This document shows, one piece after another, positions 33,310 to 41,415 of a stretch of 41,415 bases of DNA; the first letter of the stretch is position 1, and every line of letters begins with the position of its first letter. This stretch comes from Desulfurellales bacterium (lineage in GTDB: Bacteria; Campylobacterota_A; Desulfurellia; Desulfurellales; Hippeaceae). The stretch spans positions 1 through 41,415 of the forward strand of contig JALVUQ010000053.1 of NCBI GenBank assembly GCA_027035575.1, given 5' to 3'. Both the position numbers and the translations under genes were made by a program. The notes beneath the pieces are model-generated. The model was given only the letters and a program-made list of their open reading frames with translations, did no database searches and was not told the origin of the DNA.

Positions 33310-34200
33310 TCAACTGTTTAAAATTTCTATAAACACATCTTCCAAATCTTTTTTAATCGGTTCTATGTCAATAATTTCTATGTTTTTATCTTTCAAAAGT
33401 TCCAAGGTGTTTATCAAATTGCCTTTGTCACAGTTTATTTTATACAAGCCTTTTGATATCTCTTTTTCGCCAATCTCAAGATTTGTGTTGTTGTCGTTTT
33501 TTACAACTATTTCGAATCCTGAGGTCGTTAAGTATTTAATTTCAACCTCATTAAAATCTTTAACCACTTTTCCGTCTTTAACTATTACAACCCTTGAGCA
33601 GATATCTTCTATGTCGGGAATGATGTGAGATGAGAAAAAAATCGTAACCCCTTGATTGTTCAACTCCTTCATCTTTTTTTTGAATATCATTCTGCCGATA
33701 GGGTCAAGCCCGCTCATAGGCTCATCGAGAATCAAAATATCCGGTTTATGAATCAATGCTGCGGCAAAGCCTATTCTTTGTATCATACCTTTGCTGTATT
33801 TTCTCAAAGGAACTTTGGCGGAGTTTTCAAGACCGAACTCCTCAAGGAGTTTATAAGCTTGGGTTTTTGCATCTTTATATCCGAACATAGATGCCGAAAA
33901 CAGAAGCATATCCAAACCGGTAAGCGTATCGTAATATTGAGGGTTTTCCGGCATAAAGCCGATAGATGCTCTTGCTTTACAGTTTGTTGACGGTGTGCCG
34001 TTTATATAGGCATTGCCGCTGTCGGCTCTGATTAAATCCGTGATGATTTTTATTGTCGTGCTTTTGCCTGCACCGTTTGGACCTAAAAATCCGAAAATTT
34101 CACCTTTCTTTACATCAAAGGTCATACCGTCCAAAGCCTTTACCTGCTTTAGCTTTACTTTAAATGTTTTTTTAAGGTTATCTACTTTTATTGCTTCCAT
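33310..34200 (-). CDS. ABC transporter ATP-binding protein (ABC-2 exporter type)
   Basis: This 296-residue ATPase of the NatA/CcmA-like group has Walker A GPNGAGKST, Q-loop GFMPENPQYYDTLTG, signature YSKGMIQRIGFA, Walker B ILILDEPMSGLDP and switch SSHIIPDIEDIC. A C-terminal extension of about 75 residues follows, common in ABC-2 ATPases. Its partner permease is encoded two genes upstream, with the TPR protein between. Substrate is unknown; lipid, drug, or protein export are all possible for the family. The start overlaps the TPR gene by 23 bases. Confidence 0.92.
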   Translation of the reverse strand: MEAIKVDNLKKTFKVKLKQVKALDGMTFDVKKGEIFGFLGPNGAGKSTTIKIITDLIRADSGNAYINGTPSTNCKARASIGFMPENPQYYDTLTGLDMLLFSASMFGYKDAKTQAYKLLEEFGLENSAKVPLRKYSKGMIQRIGFAAALIHKPDILILDEPMSGLDPIGRMIFKKKMKELNNQGVTIFFSSHIIPDIEDICSRVVIVKDGKVVKDFNEVEIKYLTTSGFEIVVKNDNNTNLEIGEKEISKGLYKINCDKGNLINTLELLKDKNIEIIDIEPIKKDLEDVFIEILNS

Positions 34201-35053
34201 TTTTCACATCCTCTTTTTTAAAAGCAAGGTTGCTTGTGGTCTTGACCTTGCCGTTTTTATCTATGTAAAATCTTCCGCCGTAAGGGTCTTTGGGTATTTT
34301 TTTCAACAACCCGTCTTCAACAAGCACTTCTATTGATTTCGGAGGTTTTGAGTTTATTTTTTTGTATTTTTCAACGGCTTGCTGTATTTTATAAATGCCT
34401 TCAAGGGCTTTTAGTCTTGTTTCATATACCTTTTTTATACTTTCTTTCCTTGTCATTTTAACCATAGCTTTGAGGTATGCAATGCCAAGTCTTGTACGAC
34501 CCCCTTCATAGAAATATCTTGCAGCCAAATCTGTAAATAGAGGGGAGTGTGCAATAGCCGAAGCCTTTTTATAGTAAATGGCTGCATCTTTGTAGTCCTT
34601 TAAGAAGTAGGCATAATTAAATCCTAAAAAAAACGGGATTTTGAAATCCCAAGTTCTGTATTTCATAACGTATTTAAGCAGAGCGTTCACATCTTTTGCG
34701 TGTCCTATCCACGAAAATGCGGCTTGAGCGAAGTAGTAGGCATCCTCATTGTAGGGATTTAATAAAATCGATGTCTTTATGGTTGTGTAAAGGTTGTAAA
34801 ATTCCACATCTTTGTATTGCCTTTTGGCTATTTTATCTGCTTTGCCGCCGTAGTATATGATTGATTTAAACGACAGATAATCTCCGACAAACCAACGAAA
34901 TTCACCCAAAACAGCTCTGTAGAATTTGCCGTGCGGCGTGTAACCGAGTTTTTCAAACAGGGGTCTGTTTCTCATATCCTTTTCAAAATTGGGAAAAAAC
35001 ATAACAAATGCAGTTAAAAATATAATCGTTAAAACAATAGGGCTCTTTTTCAT
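34178..35053 (-). CDS. Membrane-anchored TPR-like protein of the ABC-2 operon
   Basis: This 291-residue protein has an N-terminal signal anchor (KSPIVLTIIFLTAFVMFF, about 4-20) and a helical body with TPR-like repeats: an aromatic-rich stretch from about 45 to 150 (NPYNEDAYYFAQAAFSWIG, LGFNYAYFLKDYKDAAIYY) and RLGIAYLKAMVKMTRK. The C-terminal tail, LLKKIPKDPYGGRFYIDKNG, resembles the 'DPWGxxYxY' end of type II pseudopilins but lacks the pilin N terminus. The ATG at 35053 is 11 bases after the permease stop. I do not recognise a named family. Its place between permease and ATPase suggests a periplasmic accessory of the exporter. Confidence 0.65.
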   Translation of the reverse strand: MKKSPIVLTIIFLTAFVMFFPNFEKDMRNRPLFEKLGYTPHGKFYRAVLGEFRWFVGDYLSFKSIIYYGGKADKIAKRQYKDVEFYNLYTTIKTSILLNPYNEDAYYFAQAAFSWIGHAKDVNALLKYVMKYRTWDFKIPFFLGFNYAYFLKDYKDAAIYYKKASAIAHSPLFTDLAARYFYEGGRTRLGIAYLKAMVKMTRKESIKKVYETRLKALEGIYKIQQAVEKYKKINSKPPKSIEVLVEDGLLKKIPKDPYGGRFYIDKNGKVKTTSNLAFKKEDVKNGSNKSR

Positions 35054-35063
35054 AATGCTTTTT

Positions 35064-35849
35064 TTAAGAAAAGTCTCTTTTGTTAAATATTGCCACACCG
35101 AGCGACAAAATGATACCAAGATACAATAAGAAATAGATAAAAGTAAGCTCTATTGATTTGTAGTGTAACGGTAGAGCATATGTTGCATAGGCAATTAAAT
35201 CGAACGACGAGAAGTTCGGTAGTATATAATAGACGATTTTTGCCGCAAGTTTGGTCAGATGTGACAGTTCGGATGAGCTTTTCATTATGTAGTCGTATAT
35301 GCCCTGCGAGGCGTTTCCTGCAATGAAAACCGCTATGGATGAAAAAACGGGCGTAAAAAACGACGTTGAAAACGAAGCGAATAGGAATATAAAACCAAGC
35401 AGAAGGGAATATTTTAGAAATTCCATCACAAAAGCAAAGAATATGTTAGACCAAATAATCGGCAGAGACGATTTGTAAAACGATGCCGTTATTTTTATAA
35501 CTACTGCCGAAACAGCAAAGTTAACGATGCTTATAAAAAATAGAACCAGAATCAGCGCAAAAAATTTGGAGAGGTAGTAGCTTGTTCTTGTTATCGGATA
35601 GCTTAAAACGGTAAATGTGTATTTTCTTTCTATGTCCCGCCAAATGACAAGTGTGCCCCCAAACAGCGTCATCAAAAGCAGAATGAACGAATTGAGTGTC
35701 AGAGACATAGTTATCGATATTTCCTGCAGCTGCCTCATAGAGAAGTAGCTGAACACGGGCACGGAGGCAAAAAGCAGAACAAGCGATGCCAAAACAAGAA
35801 AAATTCTATCAAAGATAAGATGTTTAATCGTTAACTTAATCAATACCAT
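35064..35849 (-). CDS. ABC-2 type permease
   Basis: This 261-residue membrane protein has six hydrophobic segments and an N-terminal cytoplasmic KLTIKHLIFDRIF, the usual start of ABC-2 permeases. The first periplasmic loop is followed by WRDIERKYTFTVLSYPITRTSYYLSKF (given here for its ERKYTF and PITRTSYYLSKF elements), the coupling-helix segment that contacts the ATPase. It is the first gene of a permease-TPR-ATPase operon. The ATG at 35849 lacks a recognisable Shine-Dalgarno sequence. Substrate is unknown. Confidence 0.85.
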   Translation of the reverse strand: MVLIKLTIKHLIFDRIFLVLASLVLLFASVPVFSYFSMRQLQEISITMSLTLNSFILLLMTLFGGTLVIWRDIERKYTFTVLSYPITRTSYYLSKFFALILVLFFISIVNFAVSAVVIKITASFYKSSLPIIWSNIFFAFVMEFLKYSLLLGFIFLFASFSTSFFTPVFSSIAVFIAGNASQGIYDYIMKSSSELSHLTKLAAKIVYYILPNFSSFDLIAYATYALPLHYKSIELTFIYFLLYLGIILSLGVAIFNKRDFS

Positions 35850-35886: not shown

Positions 35887-36831
35887 TTATGACTCTATCA
35901 GTTTTGATATGTGGTCTGCAACGTATAAATCAAATGCGGCATTGCCGACCGATTTGAAAATAGTGTTTTTACTTCTGTAAGAAGCGGCAATATTTTCGGG
36001 CAAGCTTCCCATTTCCGTTATATCGTTTTTATTAATCAACCCTTTAGATAGTGGAACTGTTATATCCGCGCTCTCTTTTATGCAGGATTCCTTATGGTCG
36101 GCAAACACGTCAAATTTTTCATATATCTCTTCGTCAATTTCCTGCATATCTTTTTTAAATGAGCCTATTGCGCTTATGTGTACGCCCTGTTTGAGTTTAA
36201 CATCTTTTAAATAAAAAAGGGGTGTTTTTGTGTTTGTAGCAGCAATAATTATATCACTTTCTCCAAGATGAGAAAGGTTATCGACAAGCTGTATCTCGGA
36301 TTTAATTTTATCTTTCAGATTACTACATAGCTCTTCTGCTTTTGATTTTGTTCGGTAGTAAATATACACCTTCTTTATATCTCTTATGTCGCAGGCTGCA
36401 ATTATTTGCGTATATGCCTGGGTGGAGGAGCCAAAAACCGAAATAATTTCTGACTCTTTTTTTGATAGAATGTCTATGGAAGCGGCGCTAATGGCAGCGG
36501 TTCTTACAGCCGTCAGTGCCGCTGCATCGAATATAAACTCAACAATCCCCGTTTTTGCATTAGAAAGAGTTAAAACGCCGTTTATCGACGGTTTGTCCAG
36601 TTCTTTGTTTTTCTCGCAAACGCCCACATATTTGCAGGCAACCCTGTTTAACCTTTCTGAGAATACCGGCATAAAAAGATATGTTGCATTCAAAGTATTT
36701 GCATTTATATGTATCCTTTGCGGAACGGTTACTCTATTGCTGCTTAAATCAAAAAGAGAACGTTTGGCAACCTCAACGAGCTGTTTATAATCCGCCAAAG
36801 AGTATATGCTCTCGCCATCAATAAACTTCAC
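35887..36831 (-). CDS. Ornithine cyclodeaminase-family reductase, probable Delta1-pyrroline-2-carboxylate reductase
   Basis: This 314-residue protein belongs to the ornithine cyclodeaminase/mu-crystallin superfamily: VPQRIHI, ACKYVG, GVLTLSNAKTG, the core DAAALTAVRTAAISAASID, a Rossmann loop VFGSSTQAYTQI and the C-terminal SVGNAAFDLYVA. The loop reads GSSTQA where the family has GxGxQA. Bacterial members next to trans-3-hydroxyproline dehydratase reduce Delta1-pyrroline-2-carboxylate to L-proline with NAD(P)H. Here the dehydratase gene ends 3 bases upstream, so that function is the best reading. True ornithine cyclodeaminase (ornithine to proline and ammonia) cannot be excluded from sequence alone, but would have no link to its neighbours. 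Confidence 0.78.
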   Translation of the reverse strand: MKFIDGESIYSLADYKQLVEVAKRSLFDLSSNRVTVPQRIHINANTLNATYLFMPVFSERLNRVACKYVGVCEKNKELDKPSINGVLTLSNAKTGIVEFIFDAAALTAVRTAAISAASIDILSKKESEIISVFGSSTQAYTQIIAACDIRDIKKVYIYYRTKSKAEELCSNLKDKIKSEIQLVDNLSHLGESDIIIAATNTKTPLFYLKDVKLKQGVHISAIGSFKKDMQEIDEEIYEKFDVFADHKESCIKESADITVPLSKGLINKNDITEMGSLPENIAASYRSKNTIFKSVGNAAFDLYVADHISKLIES

Positions 36832-36834
36832 AGC

Positions 36835-37872
36835 CTACCTCATAAAAAATCCGTATTTCAGGCTGTCTCTATCGTTTATGACAAATTCCGATTTTCCGGT
36901 TATAAACGCCTCTCCCTCAACAAAAGGAATAACGGCGTCATATTCATTAAGTTTAACTTTTTTAACAACGCCTCCACTAAATTTGGTACCTATTATGCTC
37001 TCTATTTCTATTTTATCATTTGCGGAAATTTCTCCTTCTGCAAGATGGAGAGCAGCTCTTCCGCTAACGCCCGTGCCTGTGGGGCTTCTGTCAACTTCAC
37101 CGTCTGCAAATATACAAACGTTTTTGCTTTTTTTAATTTTGCCGTCTGTAAAGATGGTGCCGTACAGAAAGCTCAAATCGTCTTCAATCGGGTGTTTTAT
37201 TTCAAAATTGTCACATACGGCTTTTTTTATCCTCATACCTACATCTATCAGCCTTCTTACGTTGCTTACATCAAGTGTTAAATTCAGCCTGTTTGCATCA
37301 ACATAAGCGTAAAACGCTCCGCCAAAGGCAACATCGAACACTACATCGCCCACACCGTCAACATAAACCTTTTCGTTTTTCATATATACAAAAGACGGCA
37401 CGTTATGGAAATAGGTTCTTGACAGCTTGTTATTTTTAAATTCGGCATAAGCCTCAACAATTCCGGCAGGCGTGTCTATTCTCATCTTGGTAACGGGCTT
37501 TGTCAGTTTTATAAGATTGCAGGATACAACAAGTTTGATTATCCCTAAAATCCCGTGCCCGCACATAGTGCTGTATCCTTCATTGTGCATAAATATCACG
37601 CCGAAATCGGAATCCTTGTTGTAGGGTTTTGTCAATACAGCCCCGTACATATCTGCGTGTCCTCTCGGCTCCCACATCAGGGCTGTCCTTATATGGTCAT
37701 ATTCGTTTTTCATCTTTCTTCTGAATTCCAAAACAGAGCCAGCTTCAATATTGTCAATCCCGTCGTATATAACCCTCAAAGGTTCACCGGCTGTGTGCAA
37801 ATCCAGAGTCTTTATGAGCAGGTCGTTGTTGCCCTTTATTCTGCAACTATCTATTTTATCGGTTTGCCACAT
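36835..37872 (-). CDS. Proline racemase-fold trans-3-hydroxy-L-proline dehydratase
   Basis: This 345-residue member of the proline racemase superfamily is often labelled racemase or 4-hydroxyproline epimerase. The first catalytic site is intact (Cys104 in STMCGHG) but the second reads DRSPTGTGVSGR, with Thr265 where racemases and epimerases have Cys. The Cys/Thr pair defines trans-3-hydroxy-L-proline dehydratases, including the human enzyme, which lose water to give Delta1-pyrroline-2-carboxylate. The downstream reductase would complete the route to proline. LDLHTAGEPLRV and WEPRGHADMYGA also fit. The ATG has AGGAGG upstream and starts 8 bases after the hypD stop. In the Azospirillum pathway the equivalent gene is called lhpH. 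Confidence 0.85.
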   Translation of the reverse strand: MWQTDKIDSCRIKGNNDLLIKTLDLHTAGEPLRVIYDGIDNIEAGSVLEFRRKMKNEYDHIRTALMWEPRGHADMYGAVLTKPYNKDSDFGVIFMHNEGYSTMCGHGILGIIKLVVSCNLIKLTKPVTKMRIDTPAGIVEAYAEFKNNKLSRTYFHNVPSFVYMKNEKVYVDGVGDVVFDVAFGGAFYAYVDANRLNLTLDVSNVRRLIDVGMRIKKAVCDNFEIKHPIEDDLSFLYGTIFTDGKIKKSKNVCIFADGEVDRSPTGTGVSGRAALHLAEGEISANDKIEIESIIGTKFSGGVVKKVKLNEYDAVIPFVEGEAFITGKSEFVINDRDSLKYGFFMR

Positions 37873-37880
37873 AACGCCTC

Positions 37881-40301
37881 CTATAGGCTTTCGTGTTCCG
37901 TTCTTTTTATTATCTCGTTTTGCAGCTGTTCGTTTAAATGGTTAAAGTAGTCGCTGTATCCTGCTACTCTGACAATCAAGTCTCCGTAGTTTTCAGGGTG
38001 TTTTTGGGCGTCTCTTAAAGTCTCGGCATCAACAACGTTAAATTGTATATGATGCCCGTCGAGTTTAAAATATGCCCTGACAAGTTTGCAAACCGCATCA
38101 ATGCCCTTTTTATCTTTCAGTAAATCGGGCGTGAATTTCATATTGAGAAGAGTTCCTCCCGTTTTTATATGGTCCATTTTGGATGCAGATTTGATAACGG
38201 CTGTCGGTCCGTTTCTATCCATACCCTGAACCGGTGATATTCCCTCCGAAATAGGCTCAAAAGCCATCCTTCCGTCCGCCGTTGCACCGAGAACCGAGCC
38301 GAAATAGACATGGACGGTTGTGGGAAGCATATTTATCCTAAACTGCCCGCCCCTGTAGGTTTTTCTCCCGTCAATATAGCTGAAAAACTCCTCAAACACC
38401 TCTTTCATTATACTGTCTGCATAATCATCGTCATTACCGTATTTATGCGTTTTGTTCAAAAGGATTTTTCTCTCCTTCTCAAACCCCTTGAAGTTGTTGT
38501 TAAGCATCATCTTAAACTGTTTTTTTGTGAAGATTCCTTCTTCAAATACGGTTTGCTTAATCGCTGCAAGCGAGTCTGTTATTGTGCCTGTTCCGACCCC
38601 CTGAATGTAGGATGAGTTGTATCTTGCACCGCCGTTGTAGTAATCTTTGCCATTTTTGATGCAGTCGTCAATAAGTATCGACAAAAACGGCGCAGGCATA
38701 TTTTTGGCATATATCCTTTCTATTATGCGGTTGGCTTTTATCTTTATGTCTATGAAGTAGTGAAGCTGCTTTTTGAAAGCTGCAAAAAAATCGTCAAACA
38801 TTTCAAAACTCTCAAACTCACCGGTCTTTAAGCCTATCAGTTTGCCGCTTAGCGGGTCTTTGCCGTTATTTATCGTTATTTCAAGCACCTTAGGGATATT
38901 AAAATAGCCTGTCAGTGTGTAATTTTCTTTGCCGAATGCCCCCGATTCGACACATCCGCTTGTACCTCCGCATCTGGCATCTACAATATCCTTGCCCTGT
39001 CTCAATAACTCCTGAACAACCGCATCGGAGTTGAAAATAGAGGGCTGCCCGAAGCTCGTTTTCAGTATCTCAACAGCCCTTTTAATAAATTTATCCGGGT
39101 TTTTCTTGCTGAGGTGAATTGAGGCGTTCGGCTGAACAAGCCTCATCTCGTCAATTACATCCAGCAGAAGATAACTCAACTCATTTACGTTGTTTGAACC
39201 ATCTTCTTTAACACCGCCGATGTTTATTTGAGCAAAATCTGTGTAAGTAGAGCTTTCTTGAGCCGTCACGCCGACTTTGGGCGGGGCAGGGTGGTTGTGG
39301 AATTTAACCCACAAAGCCTCAAGCAGCTCTTTTGCTTCGTCTTTGGTTAGTCTTCCTTCTTCCACATCTTTTTTGTAAAACGGATATAAATGTTTATCCA
39401 ATTTACCAGGCGAAAACGAATCCCATCCGTTTAACTCGGTTATGACGCCGAGATGAACAAACCAGTAGTATTGAAGCGCCTCATAAAAAGTCCTCGGAGC
39501 ATTTGCAGGAACATATTCGCAAATTTCGGCTATCTTTAAAAGCTCCTGTTTCCTTTTTGTATCTTTTGTCGTTTTTGCAAGCCTTTTAGCCTCATTAGCA
39601 TATCTTTTTGCAAACTTAATTATTGCGTTTGCGGCTATCTTCATCGCTTCAAGCTCTTCTTTTTTGTCCATAAAATTTTTGTCGTTTTCCTCATCAAGCG
39701 CATTGACAGCCCTCTCAATATCCTTTATAAAATCGAGCATTCCCTTTTTGTATATCTTGCCGTCCAAAACGGTGTGACCCGGTGCTCTCTGCTCCATAAA
39801 TTCGGTAAATACGCCGGCTTGAAACGCATCAACCCACTTTTTGTCAACCTCTTTAAAAATCATCTCTCTAATGGTTTTACCGCTCCAAAACGGTATGATT
39901 TCTTTTTCATAAACATCAAAAACATCCTTTGAGACCTTGTAGGAGACCTTCTCCCTGTCGTTCAATACCTTCAAATCATCAGGCGAGTGGAGGGTGATTT
40001 CGGGATATGTCGGCGTTGCTTTGGGTTTTTCGCCCCTTTCGCCTACGATAAGCTCGCCCTCGTTTATAGTTATCTTTTTATTTTTGAGAATATATTCAAA
40101 CGCTTTGGCTCTTTTAATCGTAACTGACTCCTCTTTTGTTGTTTTATAAAACTCCGTTAGCAGTTTTGCTCTTTCTGCCGATATGGATTCAACAGCTTCG
40201 ACACTCTGTTTTCTCAGACGCTTTATTCTGTCGTTCATACCTCTTTCTTGTTTTACTGTGTGCGTATAGTCAATCACCTTACAGCTTACATCCTTATTCA
40301 T
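37881..40301 (-). CDS. hypD: trans-4-Hydroxy-L-proline dehydratase (glycyl radical enzyme)
   Basis: This oxygen-sensitive glycyl radical enzyme removes water from trans-4-hydroxy-L-proline to give (S)-Delta1-pyrroline-5-carboxylate, which ProC can reduce to proline. In the 806-residue product the thiyl Cys450 and Glu452 lie in GTSGCVESG, the radical Gly781 in RVAGYSDYF, and the HypD-specific pocket residues Phe168 and His176 (FMEQRAPGH), Asp294, Phe356 (YTDFAQIN) and Tyr466 are all present. Each is 16 positions from its counterpart in the clostridial enzyme as I recall it, so no gaps are needed. The ATG at 40301 has AGGAGG seven bases upstream, inside the activase 3' end. It is not the hydrogenase-maturation protein of the same symbol, nor pyruvate formate-lyase. 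Confidence 0.93.
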   Translation of the reverse strand: MNKDVSCKVIDYTHTVKQERGMNDRIKRLRKQSVEAVESISAERAKLLTEFYKTTKEESVTIKRAKAFEYILKNKKITINEGELIVGERGEKPKATPTYPEITLHSPDDLKVLNDREKVSYKVSKDVFDVYEKEIIPFWSGKTIREMIFKEVDKKWVDAFQAGVFTEFMEQRAPGHTVLDGKIYKKGMLDFIKDIERAVNALDEENDKNFMDKKEELEAMKIAANAIIKFAKRYANEAKRLAKTTKDTKRKQELLKIAEICEYVPANAPRTFYEALQYYWFVHLGVITELNGWDSFSPGKLDKHLYPFYKKDVEEGRLTKDEAKELLEALWVKFHNHPAPPKVGVTAQESSTYTDFAQINIGGVKEDGSNNVNELSYLLLDVIDEMRLVQPNASIHLSKKNPDKFIKRAVEILKTSFGQPSIFNSDAVVQELLRQGKDIVDARCGGTSGCVESGAFGKENYTLTGYFNIPKVLEITINNGKDPLSGKLIGLKTGEFESFEMFDDFFAAFKKQLHYFIDIKIKANRIIERIYAKNMPAPFLSILIDDCIKNGKDYYNGGARYNSSYIQGVGTGTITDSLAAIKQTVFEEGIFTKKQFKMMLNNNFKGFEKERKILLNKTHKYGNDDDYADSIMKEVFEEFFSYIDGRKTYRGGQFRINMLPTTVHVYFGSVLGATADGRMAFEPISEGISPVQGMDRNGPTAVIKSASKMDHIKTGGTLLNMKFTPDLLKDKKGIDAVCKLVRAYFKLDGHHIQFNVVDAETLRDAQKHPENYGDLIVRVAGYSDYFNHLNEQLQNEIIKRTEHESL

Positions 40302-40303
40302 TT

Positions 40304-41206
40304 TCAACCTCCTATATTCACTTGAAAGCCTGCCAGTTGAAACTCTTTTTTTAATTTTTCCATTTCATTATCATCAGGTTTTGCGATATCGCCGAGCAAA
40401 TAGGGCATCTTCAACCTTTTGTATTTGTCAATCATCATATTGTGAAACGGCAGCAAATCAACACTGACGATATTTTTCAGTTTAAGCAAAAAGTCAATAG
40501 TCTTTTTGATATTCTCATTATCGTTGTTTATTGTCGGAATGACAGGGATTCTAACGGCTATTTTTGCACCGTTTTCATCGAGAGTTTTTAGATTGTCCAA
40601 GATTATTCTATTATCAACCCCTGTGTATGCCTTATGCTTTTTTGAATCCATAATTTTTAAGTCGTAAAGAAACAAAGAAACGTATTCTATGCTTGATAAA
40701 AGTTTATCTTTTGAGGTATATCCCGATGTATCCAGTGCAATATTCAGTTTTTCATTATGCAGTAGGCTTAAAATTTCCATCAAAAAATCGTACTGCACAA
40801 ACGGCTCTCCGCCGGATATGGTTACACCGCCGCCATCTTCAAAAAACAGCTCGTCTTTTAAAATTTCATTGGTCAACTGTCTTGCTTCATACTCTTTACC
40901 TATCATCTCTATGGCGTTTGTAGGACAAACCTTTACGCATTCACCACAAAGAGAGCATAATTTGGCAGAAATTTCAATTCTTTTGTCCGAATAGACATTT
41001 ATGGCATTAAATTTGCAGGAATCAACGCAGCTGAAACAGTTTATGCATCTGTTTTCATACCAGACCATTTGAGGTTCTAACTGCTGGCTTTCGGGGTTGT
41101 GACACCACAAGCAGCGCATAGGGCAGCCCTTTAAAAAAACGGTTGTTCTAAGCCCTTCTCCGTCGTGTATGGAGTATCTTTTAATATCAAACACAATACC
41201 CTTCAT
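40304..41206 (-). CDS. hypG: Glycyl radical enzyme activase (radical SAM), HypD-activating
   Basis: This 300-residue radical-SAM enzyme makes the glycyl radical on HypD. It has the Cx3Cx2C motif at Cys28/32/35 (GCPMRCLWCHN), an inserted two-cluster ferredoxin domain (CINCFSCVDSCKFNAI and CSLCGECVKVCPTNAI), the SAM-binding GGGVTISGGEPF and the LPFHNMMIDKY motif near the C terminus that marks GRE activases. The ferredoxin insert is typical of activases for the CutC/PduC-like/HypD group and absent from PflA. It starts with an ATG overlapping the upstream regulator stop (ATGA) and its stop lies 2 bases before the hypD start, so activase and enzyme are tightly coupled. Partner specificity is inferred from adjacency. 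Confidence 0.93.
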   Translation of the reverse strand: MKGIVFDIKRYSIHDGEGLRTTVFLKGCPMRCLWCHNPESQQLEPQMVWYENRCINCFSCVDSCKFNAINVYSDKRIEISAKLCSLCGECVKVCPTNAIEMIGKEYEARQLTNEILKDELFFEDGGGVTISGGEPFVQYDFLMEILSLLHNEKLNIALDTSGYTSKDKLLSSIEYVSLFLYDLKIMDSKKHKAYTGVDNRIILDNLKTLDENGAKIAVRIPVIPTINNDNENIKKTIDFLLKLKNIVSVDLLPFHNMMIDKYKRLKMPYLLGDIAKPDDNEMEKLKKEFQLAGFQVNIGG

Positions 41207-41415
41207 TTTTTGTCCTTTAAATAATAAAGCTCAATGTATTTTCTTTGAACCTCAAACGACCAGTGGACGTCTTTGATAAAGTTGCCGGCTTGAGCAAATT
41301 TTTCAGCCCTTAAAAGAGATACGAGTCTATCGTGTTCTTTGGTTGAGTTTTTCTCCCATTGGGCAACATACTCTCTGTTTGGCGGAAAGTCATACAGCCT
41401 TTGTTTGAGCTTGTT
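41203..41415 (-). CDS. GntR-family regulator, C-terminal FCD domain fragment (5' part outside window)
   Basis: The minus-strand frame is open from the right edge for 70 codons and stops with TGA at 41203-41205, sharing bases with the activase ATG. The fragment, beginning NKLKQRLYDFPPNREYV and containing WEKNSTKEHDRLVSLLRAEK and AGNFIKDVHWSFEVQR, fits the last helices of an FCD ligand domain (family pattern EHxxIxxAIxxxDxxxAxxxxxxH). FadR-type GntR regulators bind a small organic acid through this domain. The N-terminal winged helix is off the window. Position at the head of the operon makes it the likely hydroxyproline-responsive regulator; the sequence is short, so the family call is moderate. 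Confidence 0.6.
   Translation of the reverse strand, partial: NKLKQRLYDFPPNREYVAQWEKNSTKEHDRLVSLLRAEKFAQAGNFIKDVHWSFEVQRKYIELYYLKDKK

Follow-up and report, generated by a model that had tools for sequence, protein, structure and literature searches.

Five closely spaced genes at the end of a 41,415-nucleotide (nt) contig from a Desulfurellales bacterium (contig C53; "the window" is this whole stretch of DNA) are predicted to form one operon for the use of both trans-4- and trans-3-hydroxy-L-proline, with two branches that would meet at proline and delta1-pyrroline-5-carboxylate (P5C). Based on gene content and comparative analyses, we put the probability of this reading at about 0.83. The array occupies positions 35887-41415 of the minus strand and consists of a regulator, an activase, the glycyl-radical enzyme HypD, a racemase-family dehydratase with a Cys/Thr pair (the Cys/Thr protein) and an OCD-family reductase. 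The regulator stop codon (41203-41205) and the activase ATG (41206) share an ATGA overlap of 4 nt, and the subsequent gaps are 2, 8 and 3 nt, the last one preceding a GTG start of the OCD gene. An earlier sequence-only reading had described a tightly packed five-gene operon, which is borne out here: all five genes lie on the minus strand, and the identical order was observed in a sister genome (G017, locus L004), whose HypD is 95% identical. As the order recurs in this second genome, the array is neither an artefact of the assembly (1.72 Mb in 108 contigs) nor a chance arrangement. The enzyme assignments and the joint use of both isomers proposed in that reading are likewise well supported by family scores, active-site residues, phylogeny and gene neighbourhood.

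In the proposed pathway, the activase would generate a radical on Gly783 of HypD, as suggested by conserved residues, and HypD would dehydrate trans-4-hydroxy-L-proline to P5C. In the other branch, the Cys/Thr enzyme would dehydrate trans-3-hydroxy-L-proline to delta1-pyrroline-2-carboxylate (Pyr2C), which the OCD-family enzyme may reduce to L-proline with NAD(P)H. P5C could have two fates, conversion to proline by ProC or, through P5C dehydrogenase, to glutamate, and proline dehydrogenase could turn proline back into P5C. Local regulation probably falls to the FCD-GntR protein, which would presumably answer to a hydroxyproline or its product.

HypD and its regulatory core

HypD scores 1271 bits against the curated model NF043068 (cut-off 1100) and is 56% identical to HypD of Clostridioides difficile. 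The ten positions probed by mutagenesis in the C. difficile enzyme (PMC7077986) are all retained (H160, D278, S334, D339, F340, C434, E436, Y450, T645 and G765), whereas glycyl-radical relatives at 31-35% have lost most of them. The ring-opening hydroxyproline enzyme HplG belongs to the same superfamily and is among the matches (7vua), but its 440 bits are less than half of the 1039 bits obtained with HypD (6vxc), and on this score and the retained residues HplG was ruled out. With the cut-off of the HypD model also passed, it is highly improbable that the radical enzyme is HplG or some other dehydratase. The listed open reading frame of HypD starts with TTG at 40307; the likelier start is an in-frame ATG at 40301, closely preceded by GGAGG and located 2 nt past the activase stop codon.

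The regulator is present in the window only as a C-terminal stub of 70 codons, which gave no family match on its own, and its assignment comes solely from the complete homologue in the sister genome (L004:188-904), which carries a GntR helix-turn-helix domain (PF00392) and an FCD domain (PF07729). Similar regulators, at 43-55% identity, were observed upstream of activase-HypD in acidobacterial, gemmatimonad, Anaerolineae and Desulfurella loci. Given this spread, regulator-activase-HypD is a widely conserved core.

The dehydratase-reductase pair and competing readings

The Cys/Thr protein belongs to PF05544, and its nearest solved relative, at 54% identity, is the trans-3-hydroxy-L-proline (T3LHyp) dehydratase of Thermococcus litoralis (6R76/6R77). 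It carries the motifs MCGH at residue 103 and DRSPTGTG at residue 261, and the replacement of the second Cys by Thr is the published mark of trans-3-hydroxyproline dehydratases (t3HypD; PMC4113996). Phylogenetic analysis placed it in a single Cys/Thr clade together with the Thermococcus enzyme (6r76) and the human dehydratase (7qpo), with a support of 0.98 for the clade and weak support for the branching within it. The OCD protein matches PF02423 (OCD/mu-crystallin family; 136 bits, cut-off 24), and its closest solved relative, although far diverged, is the Pyr2C reductase 6t3e (E 9e-41). The other family of Pyr2C reductases, MLD2/Ldh_2 (PF02615), is absent from the genome of the window.

The gene context of the two proteins was compared in 49 other HypD-bearing genomes, 21 of which gave a racemase-family match; a remote homologue lacking the MCGH motif (L116) was excluded from the count. 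An adjacent OCD gene on the same strand accompanies six of the seven Cys/Thr relatives and none of the 11 Cys/Cys relatives (Fisher p 0.0004, a guide only, as the sequences are related). The single Cys/Thr gene without such a neighbour lies on a short locus, and in three of the 11 Cys/Cys cases the opposite strand carries an OCD gene. The dehydratase and reductase genes thus form a genuine unit, which in several genomes coexists with HypD, yet apart from it. A genome of another genus (G014) carries the pair away from HypD (contig C56; L094:1-2000); the first gene has an in-frame TAG just before DRSPTGTG, and the OCD gene is frameshifted. These defects possibly reflect decay or low-coverage sequencing error, the latter because the name of the HypD contig gives a coverage of about 3.

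Several observations weigh against the two-isomer operon. Both the Cys/Thr protein and the OCD protein have diverged too far for an NCBIfam equivalog call: the former reaches only 366 of 540 and 205 of 550 bits, and the latter falls below every curated cut-off (178 of 322 bits for NF004793 and 129 of 400 for NF045512), and members of the OCD family act on many substrates. The activase, which passes the TIGR02494 cut-off, falls slightly short with its best model (NF043069; 392 bits, cut-off 425). The local role of the regulator is likely but putative, and no transporter was found in the visible part of the operon. The pathway, although the best explanation, is a predicted one. The curated dehydratase models do look narrow, however, because a second Cys/Thr homologue that is paired with OCD (L101) misses their cut-offs as well. 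As the curated cut-offs are missed, we infer the activity of the OCD protein from its context, and the protein is predicted to work like a Pyr2C reductase rather than placed as a proven member.

It could be argued that the Cys/Thr and OCD genes serve another substrate, such as a 3-hydroxylated six-ring imino acid, or that the OCD protein acts as alanine dehydrogenase or ornithine cyclodeaminase and is merely located beside HypD. The failure of the OCD protein at the cut-offs of all curated functions, its distance from the nearest solved reductase and the naming of Pyr2C reductase models as bifunctional with piperideine-2-carboxylate would fit such a role, but the Cys/Thr motif, a tree position beside two characterised T3LHyp dehydratases, the recurrence of the pairing and its placement directly after HypD, with gaps of 8 and 3 nt in two genomes, render it unlikely. 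A slightly smaller chance is given to an operon for proline salvage only, in which both isomers would be reduced to proline as a building block of proteins and would not be burned. Of the downstream genes to which the sequence-only reading had pointed (proC and putA), proC is present, away from the operon, whereas neither proline dehydrogenase nor P5C dehydrogenase was found in the assembly of the window (G000), which would favour salvage. Each of the 16 other HypD-bearing Desulfurellia genomes nevertheless has proline dehydrogenase, and in the sister genome this enzyme is encoded next to P5C dehydrogenase (TIGR01236; 797 bits, above the cut-off). This syntenic segment is precisely what the assembly of the window lacks, at a contig break, with contig C33 beginning several kb beyond it. 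A purely anabolic route was rejected because the sister genome has both genes and the segment absent here coincides with this assembly gap. For the two-isomer operon, the likely end point of both branches is glutamate, with proline as a side pool. PrdA, the marker searched for Stickland proline reduction, gave no match in 25 Desulfurellia genomes, although its absence is only suggested, as no control genome gave a match either.

Table 1. Genes of the predicted hydroxyproline operon in the window
Feature	Position	Strand	Basis
FCD-family GntR regulator, C-terminal 70 codons, cut by contig end	41203..41415	-	frame open to window end; ATGA overlap
HypD activase, radical SAM with extra 4Fe-4S sites, 300 aa	40304..41206	-	above TIGR02494 cut-off
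HypD	37881..40301	-	NF043068 score; 6vxc match; ten catalytic residues
Cys/Thr racemase-family dehydratase	36835..37872	-	PF05544; 6r76 identity; motifs; clade
OCD/mu-crystallin-family protein, predicted delta1-pyrroline-2-carboxylate reductase, 314 aa, GTG start	35887..36831	-	PF02423; 6t3e

No terminator-like site was observed in the 37 nt between the end of the OCD gene and the next co-directional gene (35849), so the sequence does not define where the transcript ends. Three genes on the same strand come next (33310-35849), for a membrane protein that matches no Pfam family, a product of unknown family and an ABC ATPase, and their order is also kept in L004.

Distribution, parallels and meaning

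The closest named loci come from metagenome-assembled genomes (MAGs) of Desulfurellaceae and Desulfurellales (HypD 80-95% identical), followed by Desulfurella acetivorans (72%); the NCBI taxonomy places the order in Campylobacterota, class Desulfurellia. Among the 25 Desulfurellia genomes, which are also those covered by the phylum-wide search, HypD is present in 17 and the Cys/Thr gene in three, and the latter directly follows HypD only in the genome of the window and its sister. In the third genome of the genus (G018), the sequence stops inside HypD. Most Hippea-type loci contain activase-HypD without the 3-hydroxyproline pair and without the regulator, and the regulator is retained in the loci of genus g4 and Desulfurella. 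Cultured Hippea and Desulfurella do not carry the pair. Among 73 HypD loci obtained from genome_contigs by pattern-based sampling, of which 57 include 2.5 kb or more of downstream sequence, L004 is the only one in which HypD is followed by the pair. HypD was also observed in MAGs of Planctomycetota, Acidobacteriota, Gemmatimonadota, Spirochaetota and Asgard archaea. The notion that HypD is unusual in a Gram-negative bacterium is not supported: HypD is common, and it is the union with the 3-hydroxyproline pair that is rare, as it was found in one genus only, in which the pair has been added to the widespread regulator-activase-HypD core.

Other genes were observed around these loci. In Hippea-type genomes, an Xaa-Pro dipeptidase-like gene lies 78 nt upstream of activase-HypD (L132:9954-11132 and L073:4848-6026), and a RidA-like gene, named by eye, is also located upstream (L127:4508-4879, L130:4826-5194 and L131:1575-1985). 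In Desulfurella, a polar amino-acid ABC transporter and a DMT-type transporter precede regulator-activase-HypD (L133:11499-15336) and are candidates for a hydroxyproline uptake system. The dipeptidase-like gene and the ABC transporter hint at peptide-derived substrates. A host-associated or animal-detritus niche, as suggested in the sequence-only reading, is not supported, as the genome belongs to Desulfurellia, a relative of Hippea and Desulfurella, and HypD is spread through the class and occurs in several other phyla as well. Cultured Desulfurellia live freely in hot, reduced habitats and reduce sulfur; they are not bacteria of the gut or of hosts. Collagen is a possible source of the hydroxyprolines; the authors describing an aerobic multi-isomer cluster argued for peptide antibiotics instead (PMC5144071).

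Known systems resemble the operon in part. The clostridial hypD locus (activase-HypD-proC; C. difficile and gut Clostridiales) also has HypD adjoining its activase, and the HypD product P5C is reduced there by ProC (PMC7077986). However, proC follows HypD in that locus, whereas in the window the GntR/FCD regulator precedes activase-HypD, the 3-hydroxyproline pair follows and proC is located elsewhere. The aerobic proteobacterial LhpA-L cluster, which handles trans-4-, trans-3- and cis-3-hydroxyproline with the trans-3 dehydratase LhpG and the Pyr2C reductase LhpH or LhpK (PMC5144071), is likewise a single cluster for several isomers, but it converts 4-hydroxyproline to alpha-ketoglutarate via several enzymes and not to P5C by an oxygen-sensitive radical enzyme. 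Thus, multi-isomer clusters in aerobes and HypD loci in clostridia are known, and the junction of HypD with a trans-3 branch is a modest variation on them. A literature search found no paper linking Desulfurella with hydroxyproline.

A parallel case was observed in a planctomycete (L019:7004-12093; PMZT01000111.1), in which activase, HypD, the large and small subunits of aconitase X (AcnX; PF04412 and PF01989) and an OCD gene form one co-directional array. As in the window, HypD is joined to a putative 3-hydroxyproline-type dehydratase and an OCD reductase, but the dehydratase is an aconitase X of putative subtype and not a racemase-fold enzyme; among bacterial aconitase X proteins with two subunits, those of type IIa dehydrate cis-3-hydroxyproline (PMC8184944). 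A spirochaete locus (L024:1-4305) contains OCD-activase-HypD, cut at the contig start, and may have a 3-hydroxyproline dehydratase upstream. If the aconitase X reading is right, HypD loci gained a 3-hydroxyproline branch more than once. We give even odds to the broader proposal that HypD independently took up a 3-hydroxyproline dehydratase and an OCD gene at least twice, as racemase-fold enzyme in Desulfurellia and as aconitase X in the planctomycete, yielding an anaerobic radical counterpart of the aerobic multi-isomer clusters in which one regulator answers to both isomers.

These results would widen the range of HypD metabolism beyond gut clostridia, to sulfur-reducing bacteria with a free-living way of life, and point to a compact, oxygen-free use of two hydroxyproline isomers. 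They also supply an anaerobic genomic context for OCD-family Pyr2C reductases, which are badly placed by curated models. We predict that Hippea and Desulfurella consume trans-4-hydroxyproline, and that the trans-3 isomer is used only by the genus represented in the window.
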